From the NCBI GenBank assembly GCA_949130485.1, contig OX422184.1, forward strand, positions 5,622,655 to 5,686,654: 64,000 bases of DNA, read 5' to 3'. Under the pieces are notes generated by a model. The model had not been told where the DNA came from and searched no databases. It worked only from the letters and a program-made list of their open reading frames with translations. The translations under genes and the position numbers were made by a program. Of the stretch, positions 21,203 to 40,527 are shown in pieces. This stretch comes from Agelas oroides. Its lineage: Eukaryota > Porifera > Demospongiae > Agelasida > Agelasidae. Within the stretch, counting starts at the first letter, position 1, and every line of letters begins with the position of its first letter.

Positions 21203-21236
<34 letters not shown>

Positions 21237-24200
21237 TGGGGCGAGCCTGAGCGGCTGAGCCCCACATAGACGGTACAACTGAGCAATTTCATATATGTAT
21301 TATTATTATCGTACGACCGTCACCCACGCGCCACGCTTGGTCGCACGAAGTATGTAGGGCTTCCAATATCGCATTCGCGTACATGGCTTCCGTGACCGCA
21401 AGAGAAGCCGACGTCAAGGAGGAAAAGGACGCCATCCGTCAGGTGATCTTTAACAACAAAGAATTCAAGCAATAGCTGTGTGATTTCAGTGAACTGTACC
21501 CAAGTGTAGCCTCGTTCTCAGGCTCTCCCCACTAAGAAGGGGGAGAGCCCTTCTTAGCGGGGAGAGCCTGGGAACGAGGCTACCCAGGTAAGCAACAATG
21601 GGAAGCATTTGCCACAAGTTGAAAACTAGATGTGGGTTGGCCAAGAACTGAAGACTTTCAATTACGAGGTCATTCCTGTGTGAATAATGTACAACACTGC
21701 CTTTGTCATTTATACACTCGGATGAGGCACAGTAAACAAACAGCAACTTTACTTCTTACTAAACGCCACGCCAACTTCGACACCTCGACAAGAAGTGCGA
21801 AAGGGCATGCGTGTATACATAGTCCTTGGCATACTGCTTGCTCAGGCTCGCCCCACAATGCCCTGCATTCATTTAGTAATAATTAAGACAGGTGCTAGCA
21901 TGCATGTTTGGACAAACATCAATAGAAATAATTACATGTGATCAAGGGTAGTACTAATTAAGACAGGTGCTAGCATGCATGTTTGGACAATCATCAATAG
22001 AAATAATTACATGTGATCAAGGGTCCTAAGTTGCTGCAGGTTGTCAACACTGCACTACTGGCTGGGATACACTGATACTGACAACTAAAGTCATTTTGTC
22101 CAAATTGCCAAGCACCTTAGCACAAGGCTGATAATTGTGCAGCACAGTCAGTTCACATTTGTATGTATGTATGTACATCCGTCACACTTTAAATAGCGTG
22201 AGCAGTCTAGTCGCACGTGTGTACAGACATGATGTGCACGTGGTTGCGTTGACACTTACGAATGCAAGCGCTGCGTGAATAGGCCCTGATGGAACCTGAG
22301 CAGTCTCTATGCGACCGTGCTAGAACACGAAAGCAGAAGCAAAGGATGACAGCATCACAAGAGAGCAGGGTAAAGGAAAGGGAAAGTGATAAGAGTGAGA
22401 AAGAAGTGATGCATACAGGGAGAGTCTAGCGGCCACAGGTAAGGTGAAATGTTAGGTCAACCAAGGGTGCATCGCTCGATGCGCCTTTGGCCCACTACCA
22501 GGTACTGACCTCTTTGTAGACTTCAACAAGCGATCGCTCTGCCATCTTCTCGTTTTCTCACCGCACAATAGGCTATAGGCCTACCATGCCTACTACATAC
22601 TGGACACGAGAGCGAGGCAAACACTCTGTGCATGCATACTCCTAGTTGTATGAATAACCCATGAAATGGGCTCAGTGTGATATGGGGTATCCATGACAAT
22701 ACCGTACAGATGCAATTCTAGGGAAATACTATGGTATACTGTGGTATGGTTTCATGACTGGCCTGGTATTATGGAGACACGTACTCACTCAGAACACTGT
22801 GACCGAGAGTTATTGAATGATACGATCTGTGACCACCTCGTGTGGTGAATGGGTGCAATGAGGACTATTAGCGGAGGTCAATTTAACGTATTAGAAACCA
22901 TTTTGTAGCAAAGTTAACATTGAATATTGGACAGCATAGGTTATTAGACAGGTAAGGTAGCTAACATACGTTGCATCATATTGACTGTGTTGGTATTTAG
23001 GACTTCATTTGGTTTAGATGGGTTGGGATTTTCTAAGAGCTTGAGCTTCGCACTCCATATTACACTGATTGTATTCAGATGTTCTGCTGAGTGTGTTCAG
23101 ATGTTCTGCTGAGTGTGTTCAGATGTTCTGCTGAGTGTGTTCAGATGTTCTGCTGAGTGTGTTCAGATGTTCTGCTGAGTGTGTTCAGATGTTCTGCTGA
23201 GTGTGTTCAGATGTTCTGCTGAGTGTGTTCAGATGTTCTGCTGAGTGTGTTCAGATGTTCTGCTGAGTGTGTTCTTTTTGGCTAAATAGCCTAGGTCACT
23301 CACATTGTGCCTGTCACCTGTAAAGTCATCTGTGCTAGTAGAGACAGTGGTTTATCTATACTGACTTGTTTCTACATTAAAGCAGCTCTGCTTGTACCAT
23401 CATTGCCATTCTTCTTCCACTCTTCATTATTACACTCGTGTATACTATCGCACTGTCCGACAACACTGCTCCGGCGAGATCTGTTACACTGGCTTAATCT
23501 GCAGGATTCATTCCTAGAAGCAACCATAGCGGCGCGTGCCAAGCCATAAAAATGAATGAGTTATTGAGGTTAAAAGTGACTAGATTTTTATTGCCTTCTA
23601 CTTGCAGGCCTTAATCACCGCTGCACTGTGCTTCATCTTGTGCCGTGCCGTTTTAGTGAGTTAGCCTGAGTGATTACTCATGCGCTCTCGTGAGAATTTT
23701 GCATCGTGAAACTGGATTGTAAACATCCTTGTGGATGAGCTACAGAGATGAAGTAAAAAGCTGCACGTGTGTACAGACATGATGTGCACGTGGTTGCGTT
23801 GACACTTACGAATGCAAGCGTGAATAGTCCCTGATGGAACCTGAGCAGTCTCTATGCGACCGTGCTAGAACACGAAAGCAGAAGCAAAGGATGACAGCAT
23901 CACAAGAGAGCAGGGTAAAGGAAAGGGAAAGTGATAAGAGTGAGAAAGAAGTGATGCATACAGGGAGAGTCTAGCGGCTACAGTGAGCTATAGTGAGTCA
24001 TAAATGGATGATTATGTATAAACCCTAACCATAAAAGCCTAACACTAATTAGCCCTAACAGCATCCAGGCTGGTGAAGGTAGATACACTTCTGATAGCAA
24101 GTGAGACATCAACCGCATTCTGAAGCCAAACATTCTTCCAGCAGTGCTCAAAACAAAGAGCTTTCTGCAAGTTGCTCTGCATCTATTGGATGGAGAAGCT

Positions 24201-27200
24201 CATTAAGCAGGGCCGTAGCAAGCTATTTCAAGGTGGTGTGGCCAAATGTACATACTGCATGTAGTATCTAGGGGGGGTTGGGGACATGCTTCTCATAAGT
24301 TTGGCAATTCATAGCAAACAGAATTTCAATACTTGCTACACGTACTCTCTGTGAGGTAGTGATCGCAGATTGCGCCTTCCCAGATTAGGCTAAAAATAGT
24401 ATTGAAAAAGGGTGTGGCATACTTATTTCTATGAACTTTGAACTCACATGATTAGTGCAATGGAGTTGTTTCTTCCATCACAGTTTGCAACTAAGTCTTT
24501 CTAAATTCTTAGATGCTGAACACAAATTTTAGTTGGAAAAACGCAGGCAATAATGGAGAGCTTTCTTAGATATCATTCTGCAAGTTTCTAAGAGAGCACA
24601 AGGATGGAATCAGAAGAGCAAATGGTGCAGGTCAGGTGGGAAGGGAACAACTCCCACAAGTGCGATGGTCGTGTCCAGGACATTGCAGTTAAATTTGTGA
24701 AGCAGGAGGACATGGACGGAAGGGTTGTTGGAGCTGTCGTCAGAGTTTGTTCAGGACAGCAGATGCAGATGTCTAGGGCAGTGGTAGTCAGATGAAAACG
24801 ACTTTCTCAATGTAGCATTTGCTTCTCATTACTGTGAAGCTCTGCCAACTAATGACTACAAAACTCATAAGTTAGATGTTCAGTGTTTTGTGCCAAACTT
24901 CAAAAAAAACACTAAAGCTAAGATGAAAAAAAAGTGGCGGGAATTTCGCAATGGGGTGTTCACCTGAGTAGAGTTCTCAAAAAAAGGCTAACTATAGAGT
25001 TTAAGATCAACCACAAATTCACAGATATGATAATAGTACCGTAATGCTATAATGTTTTGCGTGAACTTTACTTTTGCGAATTGCTGATGGGATCGCAAAG
25101 AAAAGATCGCAATAATTAAACTTGTAGGGGTGGCACTTGGTAGGCGTAGTTAACGGACATGTTGATGTCGAACCAATGAACGTTAGCTGGCTGTTCCAGG
25201 AGAAGCAGTGGTAATGGATATTTCCGGCCTTGTGTAGTATAACAACAGTGAATATGGCAGAATAAGTTCCATTGTTCTTCAGAAGCTGTTTTTTTTTCAC
25301 GATGAGTAACCGGTATTCGCCAGTATTTCAGTCCGACCACACGACTTCCCAGCCACAAGGACACTGGGATCGGAGTGGTTGCAACTCGCGAAGCAAACGG
25401 AGGCGTGAAGCGTGTGTTGGAGAAGCAAGTCAGCCAACAGAGCGCTAAGAAGCGGAAACGATATACCAACTTCTCTGACACTGACAGAGCTGAGATGGGC
25501 TGATATCGTGACTATAATTGTTACTACGCGCATGCTTGTAAAAATTGAGGGAGGGGCTAAGATAGGTACTGCTCATTCGCAAAGATAAGATCGCAAATTA
25601 CTTAAATTAGCCTAAAAATGGCAAAATTGCAAAGGTTTCTCATACGCAAAACATAATAGCATTACGGTATATCAACGAAGCCAACCCAGGGTACCTATGG
25701 ACCCTACAGCAGCTTCTTTCCTTCCTTACTGTATGATGGCTTCACTTGACCTTTTTTAAAAGACAAAGACATTTACCAATAAAAACTCTCAGGTGAATTA
25801 AGGATTGGATGCAGTAATGTCATTGGCCTCGGTTGCTTGGACAAATGAAAGTTAGAAAAGTTTGGTTGCACATGCATGACCACTATCCATGCATGTGCTC
25901 AGTCTAGAAAATGCCAATGCAATGGCACTACTGCAATATAGTGCGCTCTGCAAGTAGTCTTGTAAGTGACTCTGATTTGAGCGATGAGTGTACATTATGT
26001 CATGACCTCAGATTTCTCAGAAAAAGAATTATTGACAGAAACACTTGCCAATCAGTACAGTATTATACCATCAGTAAGAAACATTTGTCATACGTTTATC
26101 AAATTTGTAAGATAGGAAGATTAACATCATTTTTGACTGAGAATCATAATTATAATAATCTCAGACCTGGCAACACTGCAGACTAGAACGAGAGGGGTTC
26201 CAGCATCTTTGGATTTCCGAAGCAATGTATTTTCATCCTCATTGCTTAAATTGCTTGAGAAGGGTCGGTTGCATTCCATATGTGGAACAAATAGTTTAGA
26301 GCAAATGTCACCTTCAATGCTGATTTACCTGACAATACCTCTAAGCTTTCTGCCCCAATGACATCTTTGACATGTATGTCATTAGACGTGAACTGTACTT
26401 CCATGTACTTTGTGAGGACAATATTGTCCAAGAACACAAGATGGTGTATTTTCAATTGGAACCTTTTATTTGGAAACAACAAACAAGTGCATGGGATTTA
26501 CAGCTCATTGTGGAAGGAATGCACTATGAGCGATCCAGAAGCAGCAACCCTTCGGATTAAGGCTGGGACGAAGGTTCGAACCTTCGCTGGGCTCGGAAGC
26601 TTACTAACCTTCGAAGGTTAATTTTGAACCTTCGACCTTTGGCCACACCCAGTGCATGCAGCAGTAAATTAATTATGCATCACTTGCGTGTGCACAGTCA
26701 CCCACGCATGCGTCAATTTGGAGATTGCGCAATACTACATGTGTAGCAGTTCATAGGACTCGCAGTTTGGTCAGTCCGTAGAGTAAGTGCAAGTGCTAGC
26801 ATAAGTCCTCCTAGTGCGAAGTCAGACGCGTGGAAGTACTTTGAGAAGTCTGCTGAGTTAAACAAGGCGAAAGTTCACTATGTTCAAAACTATTATCTTA
26901 CCGTGGGGGAACGAGCAATCTTTGGGAGCATTTGCTCACTCAACACCCGTTAAACTATAAGCCCAAAGTTAGTAGTAAGAAGCAAGCAATGCTGTGCACT
27001 GTGTACACAGACATGACAGATAAACCACGAAGGCTCGGTACCTTCGAAGGTATGTAAACGAAGGTTCGAAGGAGAAAATATTACCTTCTGGGGCCTGTTG
27101 ATATTTCTACAACAGTATTTTCCTATTCATGTGCCGTGCAATATCACACGATATTGCACGGGTAGTTATTGCATGGGTAGTTATTGCACGGGCCCTGAGG

Positions 27201-30200
27201 CTATATACGTGCAATATCCTTGCAACCAGGGTGTGGAACCTGTGCGTTCGAACGGCGAGTTACACGGTGCTTTGTGTGAGAAGAGACAAGACGCTGTTGT
27301 GGTAATGGATAATAAATACTTTATTACACTCGTTAGTGTTCGGCTCGTGAAAATACCACGCCCACTCGTGCAATAACTCATGATATATTGCACGCTAACT
27401 CGTGTAATAAGGTATATGTCAAACATATAAAGCCCCCGCATGAATTTCGGAGAACACCCAGGCCTATCACCACATACACTTACTGGAAGGCTTCGGAATT
27501 CCAGCATGGCTACTCTACTACTCAATTCCTGTTCTCAGTGATCTCATGCCCTCTGACTATGTGTACCAGCTCTGCAAATAAGGGGATTAACTCTACAATT
27601 TGGACTGCAATCTTTGGTAAGTGTATGCAATCACTACTTGAGGCTGCCATGCACCTACTGCTCATGAGCTTCTTTACCTGTTCTACACCCTTACACCCAA
27701 GCTTTACCACCTCACAATGTGCTCAGCTAATATGCATACTTTCGTGCACATGTGCAAGTTTGTGGGTGCATGGGACTCTCTGTGGTGCTACTCAACACTT
27801 GGGTTTGAAAACCTGAATGGACATCTCAGAAGGCACTGCCATGGGACACGCAATGTCCTGCCTCAGCTTGTCCACACAAAACAGGCTAATGGAATCTGAG
27901 AAACCAGCAACAGTCGCATACCTCAAGACTATGCTAGCACTAAGGAGACAGAAACGTGGCGACGCCTCCAGTTGTAGGGCAAGCAAGAAGAAGCTTCTGA
28001 ATGAATGAACCCAGAAGGCTCTAGTAGATGCTGGGCTTGCAGAAGTGTCAGTTCTGTTGCTGCCTGCTTTCACTCATCTATACCACAACTCTGTGCAGTA
28101 TAGTGAAAGCAGAAGCTGCATGAAACAATGGAGTCTGTGCATATGAACACAACTCCGGGTTTCAGTTTGGGTCAGCCATTACATTCTGCAGTGCACATGC
28201 AAGAATAGTCTTTTGATGTTTTTGAACAAATATGTGAAGGCTGGTGTAATAAACGACATTACATAGACATTAGATACTATACACATATACAAACTTAGTG
28301 GTGCTCAAACATGGTTGGAAACAGTTGCTTGCAGTGACTCTGAGGCTGAAGTAGATCCTGAAGAAGAGCCACCCTCAAAGAGATTTCATTATTATCAAAG
28401 AGAAGAGGAAACAACAAGAAGGCTCAAATCTGAAGACCCCACTATCACCTATTGGGAACGAGGAGATCGTCCGGTACCTGGAAAGCTGCCCAAATGTTAA
28501 TGAGAAGGTTGATCCTGTTGAATTTTGGATTGAGAATGAGAAAACCTACCCGTCTCTGGCTCCTGTGGCTTGTGACCTTCTTATAATTCCTGCCTCTAGT
28601 GCACCAATAGAAAGAGTCTTTTCGACAGCTGGACAAATCACATCTGGAAAACGAAATCGACTAAATGATAGGAACCTAGAGAGAGAGGTGCTACTGAAGA
28701 AAAATAAAGTATACATCTGCCAATGAGTGCATCCAGTGTCATGGAAACTATAACTGTTACCATAACTGTAATTCTCACTGTAACTAGAACCATTTCTTTC
28801 TGAAATTCATGCTGAAAACTATAACTACTAAATACTAAGTCCTCCTTTCATTAATAGTAACTGTAACAATAAGTGGAAGATGTTTACTAAAACAACACTA
28901 TTAAGCACCTTAGTGTGAGGCTACTAACCTCATAGTGTCTGTTCTCAAATGGTGGGGTGACACATGTACAGTGTTCCAAAGCAAGAGAGCAAAACTTCTT
29001 TGAAATTACATAGCTAGAATTTGTCATATTCGAACTATGTATGCATTAGCTGGAAGTTCAATTGAAAAGGCTTCGCGAACAACACCTTGCAAGTTCAACT
29101 ATTGGTTCTTCTCAGAGCCAACTCACAACTTCCTTGATTGCTCCAGCAACCAGGAAGCGAGTCCTCAAGGTCAAACAACACTTTGCTTCGATTGTAAAAA
29201 CAATTATGGCCATTATTTCTTCACAACGTCTCTAAGCAGAAGTACAACACTAACTACAAAGGTACAGTGGCCGATGAGCTATTTAAATATCAAGACAGTT
29301 TTGGAGCTGCACTTTGCTATCAGAGGAGGGAGGACATGATGTCATGTCGTAGGGACGATAAGTGCACTCTGATGACATGGCTTCTGCGAGTTATGCAAGT
29401 GGGCAAATGAGGGCCATTTCTGAACTCTTCGCCTGGACGAAAATAAAACAAAATGGCGACTGAGCAGCTGCAAAATTACAAGTACAAAACGCTGAAATTA
29501 CTACCACAGACAGGCGCAACACATAATGGTTTTCAATTTCACAAATGTAGACAAGCTTGCGAAACACATGAAAATTTAACCAACGACTTATGACTAATGA
29601 TTCTGCAAATAGCCTAACTGCATAAATTGTTCTATTATGCTCTGCATTTTAAGTATTATTTTAAAAATTATGCTCGTATGCTCGAGGCTACTAATTAAAT
29701 TATACTGGCATAATGTATGCCTCCTGTCAATATACCACAGACAGTATAGCCACCAATCCTATCTCAATTACAAGTATCGCTTCTGGTGTATAGCTATAAA
29801 CAGTGGAACCTCTCTATAAAGGTCATCATAGGACCAGCATTTTTGGGCCTTTGTTATGACTAGCTCCTTGTCCAAGTTGTACTAATGCAGTGCAATACTA
29901 AACCATGGCTATACCGTTATGCTGCTCAGGCCAGATGAACTCGGTAGGAAGACAATGGTTCCAAAACTGACACCAGTACCCATCTCTGGCATTGAATAGG
30001 CCAATTACCTTCTACAGCTGTATCTCATCCAGATTTAGGTAATGGCAGAGTATGCAAGGTACAAAAATTGGAGGGAGATGTAGGAAGACTGACCATTGCC
30101 CCTGTGAAGCATATCGATTTTGGTCCTGTTAGAATTGCAGAATCAACAATCAACAATCACAGGCAGGGGAGACACTGCTGCTCTTGACTCTAGTAAATTG

Positions 30201-33200
30201 GAGCAGCTGAAAGACAACATACGAAGTATCTTCCCAGCTGAGTGACACTGAATTTGAGGCAATATGGGGTATGTGATTTACTTTACCTTCATAGCAAGCG
30301 CTCGCAAGAATTTACACTCGTGTTTACCACTTAAGCAATGGATCTGTCTCAGTTACCATCTGCAAGGTGGCATTTCTTAGGATCCTTGGAATTTCTAACG
30401 GTCATTCGGATTGAGCTTGAAAAGCTCAACAAAAATCCAGTGGGTTACCACATGCTGATCAAAGGGGAAAACACGAGCCAGCCAACAAGACAAAGGAAGA
30501 TGTTGACTGCACCATTCTGGGGCAGAATTTAGAACCAGCTGAGTGACACTGAATTTGAGGCAATATGGGATATGTGCATTACTTTACTTTCATAGCAAGC
30601 GCTCGCAAAAACTTAAGAAAGCAAAAAGGTTGCTGGAACCTTGTACCTGTAACTCAACTTTCTTTATGCGCATTGACTGCTTCGAGTCCAACCGAGTCAT
30701 CTTGCTGGGAAATTTAACCGCTATATTGCTCATCAGAGATTGCAAACGGCGAGTAGATGTTATATCAAAGAAGATCAAGGAGCTTGGTGAAATGGGTATA
30801 CCAGCAGCTTTCTGCTATATTGCTGCTTGGAGTGGGGGACTATTCATGGCTGTCTACCTTTGCAGCAACTACATGAAATGATTGTGCAGCTGCCGTACAC
30901 GTCTGTAACCCCCATCAATATCCTTGACATATATGTCATTAGGGGCGAAATGTACTTTCATGTTCTTTGTGAGGACAACATTGTCCAAATTTTACATCAC
31001 AGGATACTTAAAAGCTTAACACCCGATTTGTACCGCAGTTATTTTATTGAAAACATAATTATAGCTTCTGAATTGACACTGATATAGATAATTAGTTTTG
31101 AGTTTCATATAAGTAGCAAGTTGAGTTTTACACAAATAAATTGACTTATCTTTTCACATCTTGCAATAATACAGCCTTACAAAGAAGTACCGCGTCAGCC
31201 TCCTGACATAATTAGATTGATCTTGATCTCATTCCGAATATTCCCGTTCCAGGATTACATCATCTTAATGCGACGTCACATGACGTGCGCAATTTTTTTG
31301 ACAAGTTTGAAAAAACACCTTGGTCGAGCTAAATTTTACTCAAGAGATTGGTGAAGATGGCTTTCTTTCTTTCAAGCAGTAGCAAGTGAGGAGTCTCTGT
31401 GCAGTGAACCCACAGTTCCAGAAAGAACTGTCAGCAAGAGAACCAAGAAGATTCCAGCAAAGCTGAGGGACTACGTCCCTTCTAGTTCGAGAGAAGAAGA
31501 GATGTTGCAGAAAAGTATGTTGCAAGTATCATGTATATATTGCGCAGAAGTTGGATGTACAAGGCAGCTAGCTGTACCTGCATGCAAATTAAGTCAAGGC
31601 AGGCATTAGAGGCAAAGTGTGGCATAGGTGTACTTTGTGGTGCCTGTCATCCTACGCAGTGTAGTGCAAATGAACAGACTGACCAGAGTGCTATTGGTAT
31701 GCCTCTTTGCCACTGTAGAGGAAGTGCTGGTGAAATGCTCACAGACGGGGCGGGGGGCGTAAAATAAAAGCAAAAGTCAGAGACATCTCAAAGAAGGACA
31801 TGTCACAACTGACGCAGGGTGACCTGAAGAAGGGATCAAGCCTGGTGGTGGAGGTGAATGGGAAAGCTTACACTGTCGAATTCATCAAGTTTGCAGGTAT
31901 GTCATAAACTGTTTCTTTTTTCACGTATATAATAGTTCGGTGCATAGGCAGTCAACAGTAACATATTGAAGTCAATGTGGTAGCTTTGTAGTACGTGCAG
32001 CAGATTAAAATCCATATTTTGTATTGTCAAAACTCCTGATATTTTCCAGTAGCAGTTCGTACATCACCGAGATACAATCACCTGACATTGATTCCTGGGA
32101 AATTCTTACTTAAATAGTCCTTGTTGCACTGTTATTTTGCAACTTTTACAAATAGCTACTATACAGGATGGTCATTATTGTCATGCACACAGATAAGGCC
32201 ATTAAAAAACCAGAAGACAAGACTTCAAGCTCCAAAAAGCCTGAACAAAGATTACCACTAAAACTGCTGTTGTATGCGAAAAGTCACACTGAATATTAAC
32301 TTTTGCCTTCTCTATAGGTTGTGTCAACCAAAGATTTCCTGAGTACAACCTCAAGGAACTTGTTCAAAATTTAAATCAAAATTGCCGAGACGCAGGCAAG
32401 GTCCAGGAATCTAGTAGCAGTCAGTAGTTTAGTTAGCTAGCATCTAATTTTTGTACTTTTTATGTCAACCCCTTTGTTTTATCCCTTGCTGCATTTACTT
32501 ACTGTTTTAGCCTATTACTTTTACCATTTACCTTATGGTAGTACGTGACATGCTGGAGTATAGAGAGCATTATGGAAGCAATACAGGGTGTTGCAAGAAA
32601 TTGTACAAGAGTTTGTAAGAACCACGCAAGATTCTTGCAAAAACTTGCAAAAACCACGTAAGAAATGATGCAAGATTCTTGCAAGAACTATGACAAGAAA
32701 TGTTCAAAAATCATGCTAAGAATCTTGCATGATTCTTGATAAGAATTGTTGCAAGATCTTGGAAGACATTTCCAGTATGCAGATGCTCTCTCCCATATGG
32801 ACTAACACGCAACTGTTAGTCACTGGAGAAGGGGGGAGGATCAAGTGTAAGAGATAGGACTTGGTACCTAAGTGGTGAACTATTACTTGTATGTGCTATC
32901 TGTGATACTACTGCTGTTTTCCAGAAGGTTCCTTAATCATAGTGTATATTACACTTATGATTCATATTCATTTGTGTGTGTAATGTCTTTCACCTTTTTC
33001 CTTATTGCCTGGTGTAGAACCTAATCTTTTCTTTGGTGCAATAGGTGCTAAATCCTGTTCTTTCATGATTTATGGTCTATTAGGAACTTGCATCATTCTT
33101 GTATAGCCTTGTTTGCACATTTTTTTTTTCATTTTTGAGTTTTTGTATTTATATAAGTGGACTGAGTTGTGTGTATTGCATTCCATTGAAATCTGGCGAA

Positions 33201-36200
33201 TTATAAGTTTGAGAACGTTAACCTGCTGCGGTCCATTCACGAGTACTGTACTCTCGCGAAAGAGCGCCCATGGGTGGAGCACCTTACAAGTCTGCCAAAG
33301 AGGTACTGTTCAGAGGATCACTAACCACAATACACAAGAGGTAGCAACCTTTTCAATAAACCATGGGGCATTCATGCTGGCACCACGGTTGACGGAAAAT
33401 GCATAGTAAGACAGGGGATGCCACCAGCACATGATGGAGAATTCTTTCTTCATATATAACCTAACCTTGTTTCTCAGTTATTTTTTTTTCTCTTTTTGTC
33501 AGTTTTAGTATATAACAACCTAGTTATCTTGATCTTCAGGGACATGATTTGCATACACTGTACCTATGATACGCATGATTGTGATCTTTCTTGATCTTGT
33601 TGGATCAATCAGAGTATTGGAATTTTGAATTTGAAATTAAGTTGAACAATCTTGTCAGAATGAAATTCGGCAGCCTTGTAACAACATTGTGACAAGGTTG
33701 TACATACTTATTACATGGTTGTCTAGGTCTGTTTACAGTTTCACGTACTGGCAAGGTTGTGACATGTTTGTGACATGGCTGTGACAAGCATCTTCACAAC
33801 CTTGTTGACAAGGTCGTAGCAACCTTGTACAAGCTTGGTATTTCTGCATGGGGAGGACAAGGTGGAGGAGGACCAACTTATGTTTCCAACACAGTATCGA
33901 GCAACCGTGGTACATGTAGCACATGCTATACCAACGTCAGGTCATATACGAAAGACCAAGAGTATATCTGTCAGTGCTTCTACTGGCCAACCCTGTGCTG
34001 ATATGTAGCTGAATACTGCTGGTCCAGGACATGGTGGAGTGTCAGATTGCTAAGCCAGGAAAGAAATGGCACACAGCCCTCACACCAGTGCTCATTATGA
34101 ATGAACCAAGGCCATGGACGTTGTGGGGCCATTGCCTAGAAGCAGGAGTGGGTACCAGTATGTATTCGTTATCTGTGACTATGATACTTGGCATCCTGAA
34201 GTTCTTCCCCTTTGATGCATTGATGCCGAGCATGTAGCTGATGAGCTGATGAAGGTGTTAGCCAGGGTGGGTGACCCTTGAGAAATCTTAACAAGCCAAC
34301 TTCACCTCCCGGTTGTTGGGAGGTGCCCCAGACCTCGACATTTTTTGAGCTGTTACATGATTGACAGTCCTCTATAGCCAAGCCCACTAGTCACCATATG
34401 CTTACACATGCCTACCTCACTACAATTTTCACACATCAACTACGGAGATCTGACAGCTTTCCTTGCACAAACTATAATCCATGTTTATTTGCTACCATAG
34501 TCTTGAGAAAGAGTGCCCATGGGTGGAGCACCTAACAAGCCTGCCAAAGAGCTTGCTACGGCCACACACACAGACACAATAGACGTTGAAAGAACTTTCA
34601 AAAGCAGACCCTGCAGATCTTGAAGTGATTTTGCATATGAACTTACGTATCTGCATGCACCTACCGCAGGCAGCACATGCTTTGTCGCAGTAAGGAATGG
34701 CCATCGAGTAAACCGAAATGGCTGAAAATCCTAACGTTTCCTTTTTGTCAGTGAAAAATTTGCACGATGATGGGGCAGCCGTTTTCTGAGACGGCTCGGC
34801 TTACTAGTTCTTATATGTACGTACGTACGACTTCACGTTTATTCAAAGTGCGCATGTGCTGTTTAGTCTGCGAAAAAGTGGTCGTGCCAAAACTGCTTCA
34901 ATCATCCCAAGAGGCTGAGTAAGTTCATTTGATCTGTCATCCGCTGTGTATATACTTTTACAATAATAGTATTAAAACTGCAAAGTACATCTGTTATGAT
35001 GATGGGTGTCATCTTCGCAAATATGCGCAAAACCCCATTCGTCGAGATCAGACACCAACAACGCAGTTGTTATCCAGAATGGAGATCGTCGTTGATAAGC
35101 TGCATATGGTTGGGCATGTTGACAAGTGATGCAAACACACGTGTGATCCACGAGCATTTGCAGAATTAGCTGAGGTTTGTCGTGTCAGTTCTTGATGTCT
35201 GTAGTACACTGTATTTGCTGCTTAACACTGTTATAAGCCCTTATAAATTGGACATGTAGAACCGTTGTGCAAATTGCGGCTAAATTCATAGCAAATAGGT
35301 TATGTAAAAAAAATGAATGTTTGATTTTTGTGAACAACTTTATTTTTTTCTTTTTGCTCATTTCACAGGTTGATACAGAAGTTTGCGAGCAAACTTCCTC
35401 ATGGTTGTCATGCTATGGTAAAATGACTCGCAGGATGAATCTTTCCACATACTTGTTCTTCCTTCTCTACATATGCAATCTACACAATATAAGGGAGACT
35501 GAAACTTACGAGACTAACTATACTGCTTCTAATAATTATTATATAATTATCACCATAGTACAAAGCTATACTGGAAAATATCACGAGTTTGTTGCCGTCT
35601 GTATTGTTATGAGTGCGCAGCATGAGTAACAATGCCAACGGCAACAAACGAGTGATATTTTTTCCGGTATAGCTTGGTACTATGGTGATAATGATTTTAT
35701 CATACGAACCTTCGACTTCATTGCACGTTCAGATGCAGCGCACGTGATTTGTAGTACCTGATACGGATTCTCGCGTGACTTGTAGTACCTGATACGGATT
35801 CTCACGTGACTTGTAGTACTAATACGGATTCTCGCGTGACTTGTAGTAAAAAAATACGGCTTTTATAAACTGCGTGCAGCTGCAAGGCTTCCCCATTGAC
35901 TCCCATACATTAGCGTGAGTTAGACGTATGATAATACATTATCACAGTAAAATGACAATGTCTTCATTCCAATGGCCACATCCATCTCTAAAAATTGGGA
36001 CACATGAGAATACCATTGACAGTCCTGTCCATCCCATGGGACTACGGGATGGATAGGACAAGACACTGGGACTTGGGGGTATACGTAAGGATAGGAATCC
36101 CATGGATAGGCCTGTCCATCCCATGGGATTATGGGACGGCACAGGATACTGGGATTTGGGGGGAATACGTAAGGATAGGACACATGAGAATCCCATGGAC

Positions 36201-39200
36201 AGGCCTGTCCATCCCACGGGACCATAGGACGGGATAAGACACTGGGATTTGGGGGTATACCTCTGGGTGGGACACGTGAGAATCCCATGGACAGTCCCGT
36301 CCATCCCATAGGACTATGGGAATTTGTTTGGGACTTAGGACTCCAGATGGCAGATTTGGACATGGCTCAATAACTTGGTGTACACATGTGCAGAGTAAGC
36401 CTCGTGCACACAAGGCGCTTAAAATAGGTGTGGTCAACGATTGCAGAGGACAGATCTCAAGGCATGTTGAGGCATGAACGAAGGGTGTCAAAGCATGCTT
36501 TTGAGGAGTTTGCAGACATTAGCGACGTGTTGCAGCCTTCACCTAGCGCCAAAATGGCATGGCGTAGTAACTTCACTATCGCTGTCTTTTCACTTCATTC
36601 GGTTTGCCTCTTGCCTTTGCTTCCTTAGTGTGCAAGGCGTTGACTGTGGTCTACTGGCCTCGGACTCCACTTCTTCGAGCTTCTGTTTTCGTTCCACTCT
36701 GTCTAGCTCTCTGCCTTCGTTTTGTTGTCACTGTCATGCGCTGGCTACGCTCTGCTAACCCCAGTATGAAACACTGAAACCGCTAGCGCTGCTGCAGCTC
36801 ACGCTGGGATCAAATTGCGACAATGAGACCACTAGTGCCGCTATAGCGCTGGGAAACATAAGTGTACACAAGTTGTGTAAACAGGACCTTTTAATCGCAT
36901 TCTTAAGTGGGAAGGATGTTTGCACACGAGCTACACCCTGTGAACCAAAAACAGCCTACACTTCAAGATTAGTAGCCTCACGCTAAGGTGCTCGGCAACA
37001 AAGAGGCAATGCAAAGCTGCATACATTCTGTGCATGAGATAGCAGTCCCAATCTCCCGGTCACCCCAGCACAGCTGATGAGGCCTGGTATTGGCCGAAAC
37101 GCGTCCTGCGCAGTGGGTGACTTTGCATGCTGATTGTTCATGTATTTGTGGACGCATGTATGTAGATGACACCATCATGAGCTACTCTGCATAGTCGGCA
37201 CTTTTGGCCTCGTGCGCATGTGACGGGATCACGTTCTGTGTGGTTTCATTCCGCAATCTGATTGGCTCCTCAAAATTTTGAGAGGTAATGGTCGACAGAA
37301 AATATACGGAAACGCTACCAGGCCCCTTTCCCGATTTTTTGGATGGGGTCTGGGAACGAGGCTAGGAAGGATGTTTGCACACGAGCTACACCCTGCCAAC
37401 TGAGAACAGCCTACAGCCTACACTGCAAGATTAGTAGCCTCACGCTAAGGTGCTCAGCAACAAAGAGGCAATGCAAAGCTGCATACATGTATTTGTGGAC
37501 CAGTGAGCAAATGATAGACAAGTAGACATCAAATGGTAGTAAGCAGGTGACACTGGAAAACAAATGACAGAGATCGAAATAAGGTTTATTGATTGTGTGG
37601 TCATTTACAATCTGTCTGGACGTGCTTGTCACAGTCATCCAATTTAATATGTGTATATACTTGTACATTCACTTACAATAACTAACGGGAGTATATATAA
37701 CCTTTAGCCCAACGCGCATGCGCTGAAATCAACCACATGGTTACCACAGAAATTGATTTCCGATTTTGAGTTGGGTTGATTCAATATGTAAAATCTGCTA
37801 AGTGACCCATTGACAGTTACGCTTAGCTTGGTTGAAAATAAACCTACCTTACGCTGGAAATAGTCAGAAGAGAAGCCAGTAAAGTCTGAACAAGATACAA
37901 CGATGGAAAAGCCAGTAGCTACTTGACATTGCATGCCACACTGAGCAGCGTTCATGAAAAGGAGGTATGAAACAACATACTGAGTGTGCGACTGAGCTCG
38001 CGCTGTCACTTACAAAAGGTAACGTAAGGTACGTGTGGAATTTGACCGATGACCACATGTAATTTTGACCTCTGAAATGATGTCATCATAACCAATCTAT
38101 CGATATGTGGGCCATTTGATAGGAAATGGGTCTTTGGGGTGATTTCTGGAAATGTGCATGTTTATGCACCAAATTATACTTTAGTATTTAACACTTTCCT
38201 GGCAAAGAATGCTTGTTGAAATAACTTATCATTGCCAAGTTATATTTCTTAAAACCAACTCATGTACAAAAGACAACTTTGAGAAATAACAGTTTAAAGT
38301 TTGACAAATGTTTGATGCTGGATGTGGACGTGTGTGCATACCATGTTCTGGTTCTCCTAGCTCAGTCATTTGCAATTGAATTGAGTACATTTACTCCTCA
38401 GGAAATTGACTATAACAACTGTTTGAGCAAACATATTCACTTTCTAGCTCTTTTTACGCTAGTTTCCTTGCATTGTCAAAATTAGGCATAAGAACATTTG
38501 GCTGGTCACCCTCATTTAAAACACCTCTAGCAATCACAGTGCCAAGATCCAATTAATCTTCACTCCCAATGTCCACATCAGAACTTCTGCCATGACGGTA
38601 AGTGTTCCTGGGACCTCCAAAGTAAACCCATAGAATATTCCTCATCCTATTCAGTGAATGCAGCTAAGAGTGCTTCATCTTCACATGCTAGAATGCTTAT
38701 GTCATCGCCAGTAGTGGCTATAGCTCATAGCAGCTGTATAAAACATGTATAGTGGTGACACTACTAAATGTTCTACAGTTATAGCTAGGCAACTTACCAG
38801 AAATACAGCTGCATTCCACATGCCATATGGATATTTCCCACTTAGTGAGCGCTTTCTAACATGGGAGTATACATATGTTTAACCTCCGGATTGTGGCAAC
38901 TCAAAATTGCAATAATCCCAGTTTTGTCTAAAATTTTGTATTTCACATATTTAGAGCTACTGAATATTCATAAATTTCACCCTAAGGGCCCTTTTCCTAT
39001 AAAACGGCCCATGTCATGATTATAATCTGACTTATATATGCGGTACTGAAGTGTATCATTGCAGCTCTCTAATAATTATTTTCACATGCTCAATAAACAT
39101 TCCTTAACCTCTCATACAGTGCATTACCATGGGAACCAGATAGTGAGAAAGGGGTCTTAACTCCATTTACTGGACTGGACTGTAATGCTAAATTTCAATA

Positions 39201-40527
39201 CCTACCTCCATCGTCCACTTTTTGCTGGCCTGCCACTCCAGTTGGCTATCAGTGATGACTACCGGAATTGCAGGACTCTCGTACCTCTCAATAAACGATT
39301 GCTCATCCACATCCAGGTAGTTGATCCGCTCACAGCTATCTTTTACCATATTTGTGGAGAGTGAGAATGTTCTTGCAAGACCAAATCTTGTCCACCCCAA
39401 CTCTCCTTTGAGTTCTGTGTTACGAAAGATCACATACAAACAAGAAAGAAGATGAACTGTCTTGCACAGACACACAAGGCAGGAAGGGGAGGTCCTAGTT
39501 TGTGATTGATCGTGAATTTTGCCAAGGGCTGTCAAACACAAAGCTTTTTCTTGAACAAAGAGAGCAAACAGCTTCCAGATTTTACATAAAAGTACTTTAA
39601 GGCAGGAGTACTAGTTTCAAATAACTTGGAAATCTGCTGAGTTTGCCCAAACTGTACGTAGTATGTGAGAAAATTCAAATTGCTGGTAAGCTATATAGGA
39701 TGTATAGCTGCAGAGAATGGCTTCAAACTAGTACAAATTGCTTACCTAGCCGAGATCAGAACTTTAGATAAACTAGTCCAGCCTAGTTACACATTACCTA
39801 TGCAATTCAGGCCACTGGCAAGGCCTAGAGCGTGCTAAGCAATGCCTATCATATTGACCTGAGACTGATTTCCGTGTTAATTAACTGTGACCTGGAAATA
39901 ATTTCCATGTGCAAAGTGTTAAAACCGTTATGTCAGACACTGTCTATAGTTGTCGAGCACATTAGTATGACAAGGGGTAGTCACTTACATGTCGCCTGTA
40001 GAAGCGTTTGCGACCGCGATCAAGTTTTTTGATCGCTTGATCGTTCCCTCGGAGGCTCTTGATCTCTTGATTTCGAAGGGTCAAAGGTCAAATTGCAGCC
40101 GCGCATTCTTGATTGTTGATTTTTAGCAGTTTGGAGGTCACCTTGATCCCTTGATCGCCCCCCCCCCCCCCCCCCCCCCCCCAAAAAAAAAGGGCTTTGA
40201 TTGCCTGATTCTATTTTAATCCCGGTCGCAAACGCTTCTACACGAGACATATAAGTGACTACCCCTTGTATGAGGCTCTAAAATTATGAGATCTGCTGTC
40301 TGCAATACTGTCTAATACTGTTGTCTCCAAATGAGGCAAGAACACACAAATTTAACATGCCCAAGTGCACCCACAAGAGAAACTGAAAATGAAAGACGAC
40401 CGTACAATGGCCTCTACATATGTGCCAAGCACAGCACATTACACAAACATTAGCGCCACTTACCTGGTCTTGCTCTTGCCTTGGCTTCGTTTATTCGATC
40501 TCTTTCTCTTTTCTCTAAGGCATCCAT
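12728..40527 (-). CDS. JMJD6: JMJD6, JmjC lysyl hydroxylase / arginine demethylase
   Basis: Nuclear Fe(II)/2-oxoglutarate dioxygenase that hydroxylates lysines of splicing factors. Seven in-phase exons: 40527-40464, 39414-39206, 17032-16880, 15465-15269, 14423-14276, 13446-13258, 12892-12728, giving 374 aa (human 403). Order seen: basic start [21 protein letters not shown] (human has the same SARPELK context); [54 protein letters not shown] with the iron ligands H and D; GHKRWALFPP; distal iron ligand H in [28 protein letters not shown]; a C-terminal polyserine tract and HRRKKR. The stop TAG follows RRKKR directly; that GT could instead be a donor, as human JMJD6 runs further. Intron 2 is 22.2 kb and full of transposons; the other introns are 0.37-1.4 kb. 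One odd donor (GTAATT after exon 5). Confidence 0.95.
16077..16693. mobile_element. 617-bp TTAA-flanked element, CTCTTTACCCCCGA termini
   Basis: TTAA (16073-16076 and 16694-16697) bounds inverted ends CTCTTTACCCCCGA and TCGGGGGTAAAGGG. Near the right end GGGCGCATACGGGCGCTATC occurs twice. TTAA duplication is typical of piggyBac and Kolobok superfamilies; no transposase is present. A diverged partial copy is at 37700-37890. It lies in JMJD6 intron 3, about 190 bp from exon 3. Confidence 0.75.
17223..17950. mobile_element. MULE deletion derivative with long TIRs and 10-bp target duplication
   Basis: The 10-mer GTCAGGAAGA flanks the element (17213-17222 and 17951-17960). Inverted ends of about 75 bp (17234-17310 and 17877-17947) each carry four copies of a TYGTCTAAT-type motif, probably enzyme binding sites. 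Inside is a frame with a FLYWCH zinc finger (17384-17782). Mutator-like elements make 8-11 bp duplications and often carry FLYWCH domains, so size, ends and domain agree. Confidence 0.8.
17384..17782 (+). pseudogene. MULE transposase remnant: FLYWCH finger fused to transposase tail
   Basis: The 132-codon frame starts [20 protein letters not shown]...CLGRA, which matches the FLYWCH pattern (F, YW, C-x-C, then A). After about 60 residues it jumps to [19 protein letters not shown], resembling the C-terminal part of MULE transposases (YFHFSQA-W-kvQ-lGL). The catalytic DDE core between them is missing. Read as an internally deleted copy, open in frame but not functional. Confidence 0.65.
18806..18942. 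repeat. 137-bp near-perfect palindrome, 3-nt loop
   Basis: Arms 18806-18873 and 18877-18942 pair around GGGC-TTC-GCCC; the central 35 bp of each arm is perfect, with a small mismatch zone near GCGATTG. It could form a hairpin in RNA or a cruciform in DNA. It sits about 180 bp before the Crypton frame. No flanking duplication recognised. Confidence 0.85.
19121..20663 (+). pseudogene. Crypton-type tyrosine recombinase DNA transposon, broken
   Basis: Cryptons move with a tyrosine recombinase and no reverse transcriptase. N-terminal part (from ATG 19121): [20 protein letters not shown], then [20 protein letters not shown] and [12 protein letters not shown], the signature shared by Cryptons and host DUF3504 genes. 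C-terminal part (20052-20663): [20 protein letters not shown] with the catalytic Arg, and [20 protein letters not shown] with the catalytic His and Tyr. The frame is broken by two stops near 19607-19627, a frameshift at an eight-T run near 19840, and further stops between 19900 and 20030. It lies antisense to JMJD6 within its large intron. No terminal repeats expected or seen. Confidence 0.85.
20888..20926. repeat. Short GC-rich hairpin
   Basis: GCCGCCACGG pairs with CCCGTGGCGGC, and internal GTAC pairs with GTAC around CATGGGATTT. It lies 225 bp after the Crypton stop and could be part of that element's 3' region. Confidence 0.6.
21209..21235. repeat. (ATA)n microsatellite
   Basis: About nine ATA/AAT units in a row. 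Confidence 0.9.
21507..21582. mobile_element. 76-bp TAGCCTCG-family miniature element
   Basis: TAGCCTCGTTCTCAGG opens and CCTGGGAACGAGGCTA closes a nested hairpin (GGGGAGAGCC... inverted twice). Flanks CCCAAGTG and CCCAGGTA are similar but shifted, so the duplication is decayed or different in length. Confidence 0.65.
21880..22024. repeat. Tandem duplication, about 72-bp unit, two copies
   Basis: TAATTAAGACAGGTGCTAGC through GATCAAGGGT occurs twice in a row with two or three differences, so it is a recent duplication. Confidence 0.9.
22107..22440 (+). repeat. Dispersed repeat R1, copy 2
   Basis: Same block order as 4279-4650: GCACCTTAGCACAAGGCTG, CATCCGTCACACTTTA, then a basic frame ([19 protein letters not shown]). 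A sub-block from GCACGTGTGTACAGACATGA to the end is repeated nearly unchanged at 23762-23985. Confidence 0.6.
23073..23273. repeat. 22-bp minisatellite, about nine copies
   Basis: The unit TGTTCAGATGTTCTGCTGAG plus TG is repeated with almost no variation, so it was recently expanded or is being homogenised. Confidence 0.95.
23762..23985 (+). repeat. Dispersed repeat R1, copy 3 (partial)
   Basis: Nearly identical to 22210-22440 except for a 7-8 bp deletion (GCGTGAATAG versus GCGCTGCGTGAATAG). The two flank the minisatellite region in direct orientation 1.55 kb apart, so the block was duplicated recently. Confidence 0.85.
23986..25038. other. Intronic DNA without a recognised gene
   Basis: Contains a CAGGGCCGTAGCAAGC motif at about 24217 that resembles a hAT MITE end, and a 63-codon frame at 24604-24795 ([20 protein letters not shown]) that I cannot place. 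Nothing else is supported. Confidence 0.4.
25039..25667. mobile_element. 629-bp TA-flanked MITE, CCGTAATGCTATAATG termini
   Basis: Left CCGTAATGCTATAATGTTTT is inverted at the right as AAAACATAATAGCATTACGG, with TA on both sides (25037-25038, 25668-25669). Inner GATCGCAAAGAAAAGATCGC and CGCAAAGATAAGATCGC form a second inverted pair. No transposase. Confidence 0.8.
26356..26560 (+). pseudogene. Conserved coding segment of unknown family, copy A
   Basis: The frame reads [20 protein letters not shown] then [19 protein letters not shown] second copy at 30919-30999 keeps [20 protein letters not shown], with most differences synonymous or conservative. This suggests both descend from a real multi-copy gene, probably of a transposon. 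Family not recognised. Confidence 0.45.
26563..27085. mobile_element. hAT-like non-autonomous element with zf-BED remnant
   Basis: GACGAAGGTTCGAACCTTCG on the left and AACGAAGGTTCGAAGG on the right give inverted ends rich in AACCTTCG palindromes. In between, about 26805-26885 reads [20 protein letters not shown], the start of a BED zinc finger as in hAT transposases. The zinc ligands that should follow are lost. Ends are approximate. Confidence 0.5.
27136..27420. repeat. Inverted repeats built on TTATTGCACG
   Basis: GTAGTTATTGCACGGG-type units on the left are mirrored by CGTGCAATAACTC and TTGCACGCTAACTCGTG on the right. Typical of a small TIR element; exact ends not found. Confidence 0.4.
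27500..27990 (+). pseudogene. CACTA/EnSpm-like transposase fragment (DUF4218-like)
   Basis: The segment near 27717-27890 reads [20 protein letters not shown] then [20 protein letters not shown], matching the H-x-V-x-x-x-G-x-LW-x-S-x-x-FE-x-NG...HGT pattern of DUF4218 at the C-terminal side of TNP2-type transposases. The upstream frame has stops. Flanked by hAT pieces, so the region is a patchwork. Confidence 0.5.
28315..28726 (+). pseudogene. hAT transposase C-terminus with dimerisation domain
   Basis: Frame 28457-28726 reads [32 protein letters not shown], then [20 protein letters not shown] and KRNRL, ending at TGA. This is the hAT family C-terminal dimerisation domain (WW/E..YP.L...A...[16 protein letters not shown]). 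An upstream acidic piece ([17 protein letters not shown]) is in another frame, so there is a shift between about 28420 and 28457. No BED or DDE region attached. Confidence 0.85.
28903..30236. other. Intronic DNA without a recognised gene
   Basis: Begins with a copy of the R1 terminus (GCACCTTAGTGTGAGGCTAC). A 100-codon frame at 29037-29339 has no recognised family. Nothing else could be supported. Confidence 0.4.
30237..30616. repeat. Two direct copies of an 80-bp block, 301 bp apart
   Basis: GCTGAGTGACACTGAATTTG through CATAGCAAGCGCTCGCAA occurs at 30237-30315 and 30538-30616 with a handful of differences. The spacer carries no recognised gene. Confidence 0.85.
30919..30999 (+). pseudogene. 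Conserved coding segment of unknown family, copy B
   Basis: Frame [20 protein letters not shown], paralogous to 26356-26560. It is preceded by a 112-codon frame at 30543-30881 that I cannot place but which may belong to the same element. Confidence 0.4.
31370..32428 (+). CDS. Possible small multi-exon gene or fragment of unknown function
   Basis: Three or four exon-like pieces on the strand opposite to JMJD6: about 31376-31514 ([20 protein letters not shown] then [15 protein letters not shown]); 31787-31897 ([20 protein letters not shown] then [17 protein letters not shown]) before a GTATGT donor; 32193-32258 after CACACAG ([20 protein letters not shown]); and 32319-32428 after CTATAG. The lysine-rich, compositionally protein-like pieces and splice motifs argue for coding origin, but no start codon or family was recognised. 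It could be a captured or transposon-borne gene. Tentative. Confidence 0.25.
32575..32765. repeat. Degenerate array of CAAGATTCTTGCAAG palindromic motifs
   Basis: About ten partly overlapping copies of GCAAGATTCTTGCAAGAAC-like text in both orientations. It is not a simple tandem repeat; spacing varies. Confidence 0.7.
33239..33306. repeat. Solo end of the CTCGCGAAAGAG element family
   Basis: CTCGCGAAAGAGCGCCCATG followed by GGTGGAGCACCTTACAAG matches the right end of the element at 49626-50113. A second solo end in the same orientation is at 34494-34560. Confidence 0.65.
33655..33835. repeat. Degenerate array of ACAAGGTTGTGACATG motifs
   Basis: Eight or more variants of ACAAGGTTGTGACA and its inverse CAACCTTGT with irregular spacing. 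It resembles the 32575-32765 array in design but not in sequence. Confidence 0.65.
33890..34400 (+). mobile_element. Ty3/Gypsy LTR retrotransposon fossil: integrase fragment
   Basis: Pieces of a Gypsy-type integrase are readable: the zinc-binding HHCC region followed by the start of the catalytic core. No LTRs, gag, protease or reverse transcriptase are nearby. The copy is broken in several places, isolated and looks old. It lies in JMJD6 intron 2. Confidence 0.6.
34494..34560. repeat. Solo end of the CTCGCGAAAGAG element family
   Basis: AGAAAGAGTGCCCATGGGTG and GAGCACCTAACAAGCCTGCC match 33239-33306 and the right end of 49626-50113. Likely a truncated copy. Confidence 0.6.
34860..35500 (+). 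pseudogene. KDZ-type transposase C-terminus with an intron
   Basis: Exon-like piece to 35174: [20 protein letters not shown] then [16 protein letters not shown] and [11 protein letters not shown]. Intron 35175-35368 (GT...CACAG). Second piece from 35369: [20 protein letters not shown] then [20 protein letters not shown]. The D-x-x-C-H-L-x-x-Y/F, D-K-x-H-x-x-GH and E-Q-x-x-S-W-L-x-x-Y-x-x-x-x-R-R-M motifs match Kyakuja-Dileera-Zisupton transposases and related cysteine-cluster proteins. One stop falls in the first piece after GHVDK; the N-terminal half is absent. Splice phase is preserved. Confidence 0.7.
35547..35691. repeat. Palindrome, about 65-bp arms
   Basis: TTATCACCATAGTACAAAGC is mirrored by GCTTGGTACTATGGTGATAA; inner AATATCACGAGTTTGTTGCC pairs with GGCAACAAACGAGTGATATT. 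A fold-back element directly downstream of the KDZ fragment. Confidence 0.8.
35739..35855. repeat. Tandem repeat, about 31-bp unit, three to four copies
   Basis: The unit CGTGACTTGTAGTACCTGAT plus ACGGATTCTCG is repeated; the last copy is altered. Confidence 0.9.
35996..36345. repeat. Satellite, about 90-bp unit, four copies
   Basis: CCTGTCCATCCCATGGGACT recurs at about 36024, 36111, 36204 and 36296 (spacings 87, 93 and 92). Each unit holds a small palindrome (CCATGGACAGGCCTGTCCAT). Several frames stay open through it on both strands, most of all on the minus strand ([10 protein letters not shown]-type repeats of about 30 residues), because the unit lacks stops rather than because of a clear gene. 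Confidence 0.85.
36460..36910 (-). repeat. Possible diverged R1 relative, minus orientation
   Basis: The minus strand reads [20 protein letters not shown] and later [13 protein letters not shown], similar in style to the basic frame of R1 copies. It precedes an R1-type terminus (inverse of GCACCTTAGCGTGAGGC) at about 36951. Weak. Confidence 0.3.
36911..37489. repeat. Direct duplication of a 115-bp block flanking the hammerhead
   Basis: GGAAGGATGTTTGCACACGA through GGCAATGCAAAGCTGCATAC occurs at 36911-37025 and 37365-37488. Copy 1 continues through the hammerhead to CATGTATTTGTGGAC; copy 2 reaches the same CATGTATTTGTGGAC at once, so it has lost (or never had) the ribozyme segment. Copy 2 directly abuts a TAGCCTCG-type end (GGGAACGAGGCTA at about 37352-37364). 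Confidence 0.8.
37059..37121 (+). ncRNA. Hammerhead ribozyme, type I, minimal stem III
   Basis: Self-cleaving RNA motif. The conserved core is complete: CTGATGA (37074-37080), stem II GGCC/GGCC (37081-37084 with 37092-37095, loop TGGTATT), GAAA (37096-37099), and cleavage triplet GTC (37103-37105). Stem III is only one or two base pairs (A99-T104, perhaps C100-G103). Stem I: inner pairs 37068-37073 with 37106-37111 (five of six), an internal loop, then seven outer pairs GTCACCC (37059-37065) with GGGTGAC (37115-37121). Very short stem III type I hammerheads are known from Penelope-like retroelements and related animal repeats; no such reverse transcriptase is in the window. Confidence 0.88.
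37700..37890. repeat. Diverged partial copy of the 16077-16693 TTAA element
   Basis: Matching order of blocks: CGCGCATGCGC followed by GAAATCAA, GTTGA...AATAAACCTACCTTAC-like text and GAAATAGTCA. Only the left part is recognisable. Confidence 0.5.
37891..39205. other. JMJD6 intron 2, exon 2-proximal part
   Basis: No coding sequence, structured repeat or transposon end could be recognised in this 1.3-kb stretch. Confidence 0.4.
39971..40267. mobile_element. 297-bp MITE, CAAGGGGTAGTCACTTA termini
   Basis: CAAGGGGTAGTCACTTACAT and ATATAAGTGACTACCCCTTG are inverted, followed inward by GAAGCGTTTGCGACCG / CGGTCGCAAACGCTTC. TATGA flanks both sides. It includes a run of 25 C (40158-40182). JMJD6 intron 1. 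Confidence 0.8.

Follow-up and report, generated by a model that had tools for sequence, protein, structure and literature searches.

The hammerhead-like motif in the window (the whole 64,000-nucleotide stretch of DNA analysed here, G000:C2:5622655-5686654) belongs, with a probability of about 0.94, to a degenerate, 5′-truncated copy of the 3′ tail of a Penelope-like element (PLE), and the copy still bears the element's minimal type I hammerhead. The coordinates of the copy and of the features around it are collected in Table 1.

The motif has the invariant core of a type I hammerhead (CUGAUGA, GAAA and NUH) together with stems I and II, with one stem I mismatch in the window copy. The sequence-only reading had found every conserved core position present, and CTGATGA (37074-37080), GAAA (37096-37099) and GTC (37103-37105) are all in place. 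The four perfect G-C pairs that it gave to stem II are there as well (GGCC at 37081-37084 with GGCC at 37092-37095). Its account of stem I, seven outer and five inner pairs, needs a correction in the inner half. Read from the letters, the outer half forms 7 pairs (GTCACCC, 37059-37065, with GGGTGAC, 37115-37121). The inner half (GCACAG, 37068-37073, with CTGCGC, 37106-37111) has its 5 pairs, but these are broken by one A-C mismatch (37070 with 37109) that the parent element does not have. On the sequence evidence, the window motif is a genuine hammerhead sequence.

Table 1. Features of the PLE tail copy, its hammerhead and their surroundings, in positions of the window.
Feature	Positions	Strand	Basis
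5′-truncated PLE tail insertion	37024..37141	+	97-98% identity to three full elements over 37024-37128; 3′ end TGATTGTTCAT; not present in host repeat copy 2
Type I hammerhead ribozyme motif with minimal stem III	37059..37121	+	core, stem II and both stem I halves read in letters; genome counts; Rfam
A for the parent's G, giving the inner stem I A-C mismatch	37070..37070	+	alignment with the parent
ACGCGT, self-complementary stem III; could pair two hammerheads (dimer)	37099..37104	+	sequence; dimer mechanism from the literature
Predicted scissile bond GTC^CTG	37105..37106	+	core layout, by inspection
Junction where ~36 nt of the interior of the PLE tail are missing, in the window copy only	37128..37131	+	alignment; single genomic match
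Host repeat copy 1, left of the insertion	36910..37026	+	repeat comparison
Host repeat copy 1, right of the insertion, GTATTTGTGGAC	37142..37153	+	repeat comparison, alignment
Host repeat copy 2, uninterrupted (empty site)	37365..37500	+	repeat comparison, alignment
Predicted JMJD6 intron, ~22.2 kb; GT donor following the exon that ends in KKWTME, AG acceptor preceding RLTRKF	17033..39205	-	splice sites by eye; protein matches

Taken singly, such a motif is only moderately surprising, since a loose pattern (CTGATGAN{4,30}CGAAAN{2,30}GTC) with one match in the window was also present in 8 of 100 window shuffles. At the gathering level Rfam reported nothing in the window, and at E ≤ 10 it reported no hammerhead in the region 36000-38500. 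The covariance search proposed in the sequence-only reading was borne out in part when run with laxer filters on 181 bases: Hammerhead_1 (RF00163) was the best family, at 37068-37111, but its 20.1 bits (E 0.012) fall below the gathering score of 34. The parent element's copy reached 23.2 bits as Hammerhead_HH9 (E 0.0011), below the gathering score of 52. PLE hammerheads lack most of stem III. The type III model (Hammerhead_3, RF00008) gave nothing in the genome among 68 of 33,874 candidates scored, and 14 control genomes likewise gave nothing.

Both the shuffles and the Rfam scores below gathering level are what a chance match to the hammerhead pattern could produce. We regard such a match as vanishingly improbable in view of the genome-wide counts. 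The pattern CTGATGAN{8,30}CGAAACN{0,8}GTC has 518 genome matches vs. 30 for the reversed pattern, and the window's 32-nt core occurs, at up to 3 mismatches, at 733 places vs. 0 for the reversed control. These counts settle the reality of the hammerhead. Hammerhead_1 moreover tops the Rfam families at exactly this spot, and the motif sits in both pseudo-LTRs of a PLE, as described below. Folding energy does not prove a hammerhead. The best fold of the window copy differs from the hammerhead (z -1.76); the parent version is more stable (z -3.36), with stems I and II formed plus pairs inside the core.

A DNA search with 37027-37145 (40 of 2,061 candidates scored) returned 39 copies outside the window that match 37027-37128 at 98%. 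The stretch 37024-37128 is 97-98% identical to the pseudo-LTRs of three full elements (L063, L064 and L065), each of which consists of a partial unit followed by a full unit (pseudo-LTR, ORF, pseudo-LTR). Same-strand ribozyme pairs lie either side of the ORF, 3,558 nt apart on C2 and C11 and 3,553 nt apart on C1. The parent unit is 3,558 nt (3.56 kb), and the hammerhead cut site is 72 nt upstream of its end. In L064 the two stretches of the repeat are 684-1818 and 4240-5376, with ribozymes that begin at 1715 and 5273. An open frame of 1,012 codons spans 1895-4930, and its first ATG is at 1955. Pfam places a GIY-YIG domain at residues 148-237 of the parent ORF (E 2.9e-5, above the cut-off) and RVT_1 at residues 652-862 (E 2.7e-5, under Pfam's own cut-off). 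The parent therefore has the GIY-YIG endonuclease of PLEs and, by way of the sub-cut-off RVT_1 match (E 2.7e-5), their reverse transcriptase, and its copies show the partial tandem units giving pseudo-LTRs and the 5′ truncation of PLEs. The GIY-YIG domain is N-terminal to the reverse transcriptase (148-237 precedes 652-862), which is the permuted, Chlamys-type order. The parent protein has 1,073 relatives at E ≤ 0.001, and several of the 120 listed carry both RVT_1 and GIY-YIG. Judged by its domains and structure, the parent is a Penelope-like element with its endonuclease before the reverse transcriptase. The minimal stem III had been compared in the sequence-only reading to hammerheads of Penelope-like type, and the pseudo-LTR copies of the parent bear this out.

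A search of the genome with the parent ORF reported 48 matches (45 of 520 candidates scored). None of the 48 falls in the window, where the sequence-only reading had seen no PLE reverse transcriptase either. Seven of them cover at least 1,011 of the 1,012 residues, are free of stops and have 99-100% protein identity; together with the 733 ribozyme copies, these full and open matches make the family look recent. The copies of the element vary in their 5′ starts and have a common 3′ end. We scanned the terminal sequences of 79 loci, 60 of them from the ribozyme-pattern and tail searches (family B loci, described below, and the window's own included) and 19 of them cut-site-tail matches. The unit's 3′ end, TGATTGTTCAT, is exact in 50 of the 79 and is followed by 43 distinct 3′ flanks; among these 43, the first base is G in 35, the second is C in 33 and the third is A in 34.

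The window copy is homologous to the parent over 37024-37128 and then resumes at TGATTGTTCAT, the end used by other copies too; it corresponds to the unit's last ~150 nt less ~36 nt. The net insertion is 115 nt (37027-37141), and its junctions are ambiguous by 3 nt because the CAT at 37024-37026 and 37139-37141 is common to the target. No consistent target-site duplication was seen by eye. The site before insertion can be read from the host repeat. Its copies at 36910-37026 and 37365-37488 are 455-462 bp apart, the insertion splits the first, and the second reads straight through the junction, with GCATACAT followed directly by GTATTTGTGGAC. The host repeat is dispersed in the genome (40 of 257 candidates scored). 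By eye, a short repeat with shared sequence, e.g., GAGGCTACTAATC, is found on both strands at 4271-4345, 22104-22178, 36938-37026 and 37400-37488, and one copy has relatives genome-wide. Just upstream, at 36000-36324, a ~92-nt unit is present in about four tandem copies. Phage records searched with 36900-37520 gave no match.

A type I hammerhead within a short insertion would also suit a non-autonomous ribozyme-bearing repeat, as the sequence-only reading had proposed, i.e., a member of an animal retrozyme family that spreads as small circular RNAs. Animals do have retrozymes of ~170-400 nt with such motifs, according to the account in PMC7229834. We consider this origin very unlikely for the window copy. 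There is no tandem array of the insertion in the window, and the suggested look for tandem or dimeric copies found none at the site, where the flanking direct repeat belongs to another repeat family that the insertion interrupts. The non-LTR retrozymes of PMC7229834 share with the present motif a type I hammerhead in animal repeats, but the short tandem unit of an animal retrozyme (about 150-450 bp, with a type I hammerhead) was not found here. The deleted form of the tail has one match in the genome (259 Mb, at up to 2 mismatches), which is the window itself. The sequence is continuous with the tail of an autonomous PLE that encodes GIY-YIG and a reverse transcriptase in the same genome, and its stem III is minimal, as described for PLEs.

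A truncated PLE tail is the origin we prefer, and it may have come about as follows. The element's protein would have nicked a CATG/CATA-like site in an older repeat within the JMJD6 intron. Reverse transcription would have begun in the tail and run past the hammerhead before an early stop; the resulting copy of ~150 nt would have lost ~36 nt during or after synthesis. Tail copies at two other loci (L038 and L039) have another internal deletion and likewise rejoin at the terminal TTGTTCAT. Template switching may be the source of deletions that end at the unit's end.

The minus strand carries JMJD6, whose pieces are near 40503, 39241, 16966, 15435, 14425 and 13425. Solved JMJD6 chains are matched by the second of these (E 2.7e-13), and the best named relative of the window's JMJD6 is from the sponge Amphimedon queenslandica (75% over the whole query; three other proteins score higher), so a sponge is the probable host. 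The hammerhead was correctly placed by the sequence-only reading in a JMJD6 intron, being within the predicted intron 39205-17033, and both it and the insertion are antisense to JMJD6. This location invites the idea of a domesticated intronic ribozyme acting on JMJD6, and intronic hammerheads are named for the human RECK and CTCL genes in PMC6155905. We give domestication next to no credence. The hammerhead is antisense to JMJD6 and so cannot cut the JMJD6 pre-mRNA, which carries the complement; its stem I is mutated; and it is one among hundreds of dispersed copies. The window copy is without evident function, and it could act only if the plus strand were transcribed, antisense to JMJD6. Other mobile-element-like frames were noted by eye in the window. 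Inside the same intron, at 19100-20663 (plus strand), are frames like the tyrosine recombinase of a Crypton-like element, and at 60051-62742 (minus strand) are adjoining frames like a reverse transcriptase and a tyrosine recombinase, similar to DIRS/Ngaro.

The window's hammerhead family is not the only one in the genome. Family B (core CTGATGACGACTGGAGCATTCAGTCGAAACGTC) occurs at 605 places at up to 3 mismatches, vs. 0 in the control, and has GACTG/CAGTC as stem II and ACGT as stem III. At locus L011 a family B hammerhead stands behind a reverse transcriptase-like frame, and then a GIY-YIG-like frame, as read by eye; for the first frame Pfam found no more than RVT_1 at E 0.022, and for the second nothing. 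Family B is probably carried by a PLE with its endonuclease after the reverse transcriptase, a weak assignment. A third kind, at L031 and L032, has the stems TACAG/CTGTA and GGTC/GACC. At these two loci (G000:C1:13788769 and 13789244) the hammerhead-like motif CTGATGAAGGTCCACGGACCGAAACGTC occurs twice, in opposite orientation, ~450 bp apart. Across families A, B and C the letters of stem II differ and its pairing is kept. Of the 12 family B copies examined, however, 11 have a non-standard pair at the stem II position beside the core. Stem III is self-complementary in all three families (ACGCGT, ACGT and ACGT), which suits cleavage by two paired hammerheads, as far as the letters can tell.

Some peculiarities of single copies are worth recording. 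Several of the listed one-mismatch family B copies carry CpG changes (C to T or G to A), among them GTC turned into GTT at the cut site. Some family B hammerheads face, head to head, an inverted copy a few tens of bases away (L012, L013 and L014; G000:C1:30679829-30679930). L021 (G000:C1:8092139) has a hammerhead-like core in a long inverted repeat whose arms measure ~40 nt each by eye and fail to abut the core properly; this may be chance. Viral contigs gave two matches to the ribozyme pattern (L001 and L002), about as many as expected by chance on a rough estimate made without a control.

The association of PLEs with hammerheads is already known, and the present family is one further well-resolved element. 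Cervera and de la Pena reportedly found hammerheads in the pseudo-LTRs of Penelope-like elements in 2014. Those hammerheads are like the ones here: minimal type I motifs without most of stem III, in tandem pseudo-LTRs, which may cleave as dimers. Only the host and the element sequence may be new, and the window copy is a truncated remnant. A PLE clade with permuted domains was reportedly described by Craig et al. in 2021, and Chlamys elements have their endonuclease first. The parent resembles this clade in having GIY-YIG before the reverse transcriptase, a likeness of domain order as opposed to clade membership drawn from a tree. Chlamys is used as a PLE group name in PMC12477816. In a 2020 review (PMC7761336), PLE hammerheads are described as standing in tandem in pseudo-LTRs, where they may cleave as dimers, and their role is called still a mystery.

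Whether cleavage sets the ends of new copies can be asked of the copies themselves. A pattern for tails that lack C17 ahead of the cut site matched 19 places vs. 0 in the control, and for 10 of the 19 the upstream DNA looks unrelated. One of these, L081, is doubtful because CTGATGAGG is directly upstream, and among the 9 rows left four share flanks (L070, L071, L072 and L084). About 6 independent copies start exactly at the predicted scissile bond. We tried these starts as a cleavage footprint and rejected it, as they are in no clear excess over neighbouring positions in the control. From -15 to 0 (58 of 58 rows) there are 10 starts at the cut site, 11 at -3, 9 at -2, 6 each at -4 and -5 and 4 at -1, and the 10 include 4 from a duplicated locus and 3 with mutated hammerheads. 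When a strict filter was applied to keep clean independent starts, the cut site had 2 and the other positions having rows had 0 to 3; the filter also discards genuine starts and is a rough guide only. From +1 to +16 (among 100 of 104 rows listed) the raw counts, with duplicates and mutated copies kept, were 26 at +13, 14 at +12 and 11 each at +6 and +11. The pattern behind this second set required a non-T at -2, which excludes cut-site starts preceded by CATG, so only the -15 to 0 set compares the cut site with its neighbours equally. CATG immediately before the start of a copy is common by eye, which suggests microhomology. There may be a small excess of starts at the cut site, but we claim no footprint.

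The copies extend through an intact cut junction to a 3′ end 72 nt further on, which means that their RNA template had either not been cleaved at that ribozyme or been religated. A close comparison is Poseidon of Anolis carolinensis (PAc), which, in the account of PMC11167929, also has tandem units, a hammerhead near the unit junction and copies ending downstream of the ribozyme. PAc differs in its C-terminal GIY-YIG and in an ORF that starts at hammerhead stem II, whereas the first ATG here is ~210 nt after the cut site. The same account (PMC11167929) reports that cleavage was not required for insertion in vitro, that the ribozyme cut only with protein present and that reverse transcription had an internal start on the RNA, downstream of the ribozyme. 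By analogy, the copies in this genome, with 3′ ends past an intact cut site, fit the PAc pattern. Nothing in the sequences clearly indicates that the ends of new copies are set by ribozyme cleavage; that cleavage ever happens is not disproved by this. The probable task of the ribozyme in the living element would be to trim tandem transcripts, with two hammerheads most likely paired through their palindromic stem III (ACGCGU).

A motif read from raw sequence has thus been traced to its parent element. On a tentative reading, to which we give somewhat less than even odds, one animal genome, probably that of a sponge, holds at least two PLE lineages, of apparently opposite domain order, that have kept hammerheads with a self-complementary stem III, its copies lack a ribozyme-trimming signature, and the ribozyme acts at a step other than the setting of ends. 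If true, a role beyond end-setting would bear on the open question of PLE hammerhead function. As the family looks recent and has its many ribozyme copies, it would be of use as a natural setting in which to study the in vivo role of PLE hammerheads.
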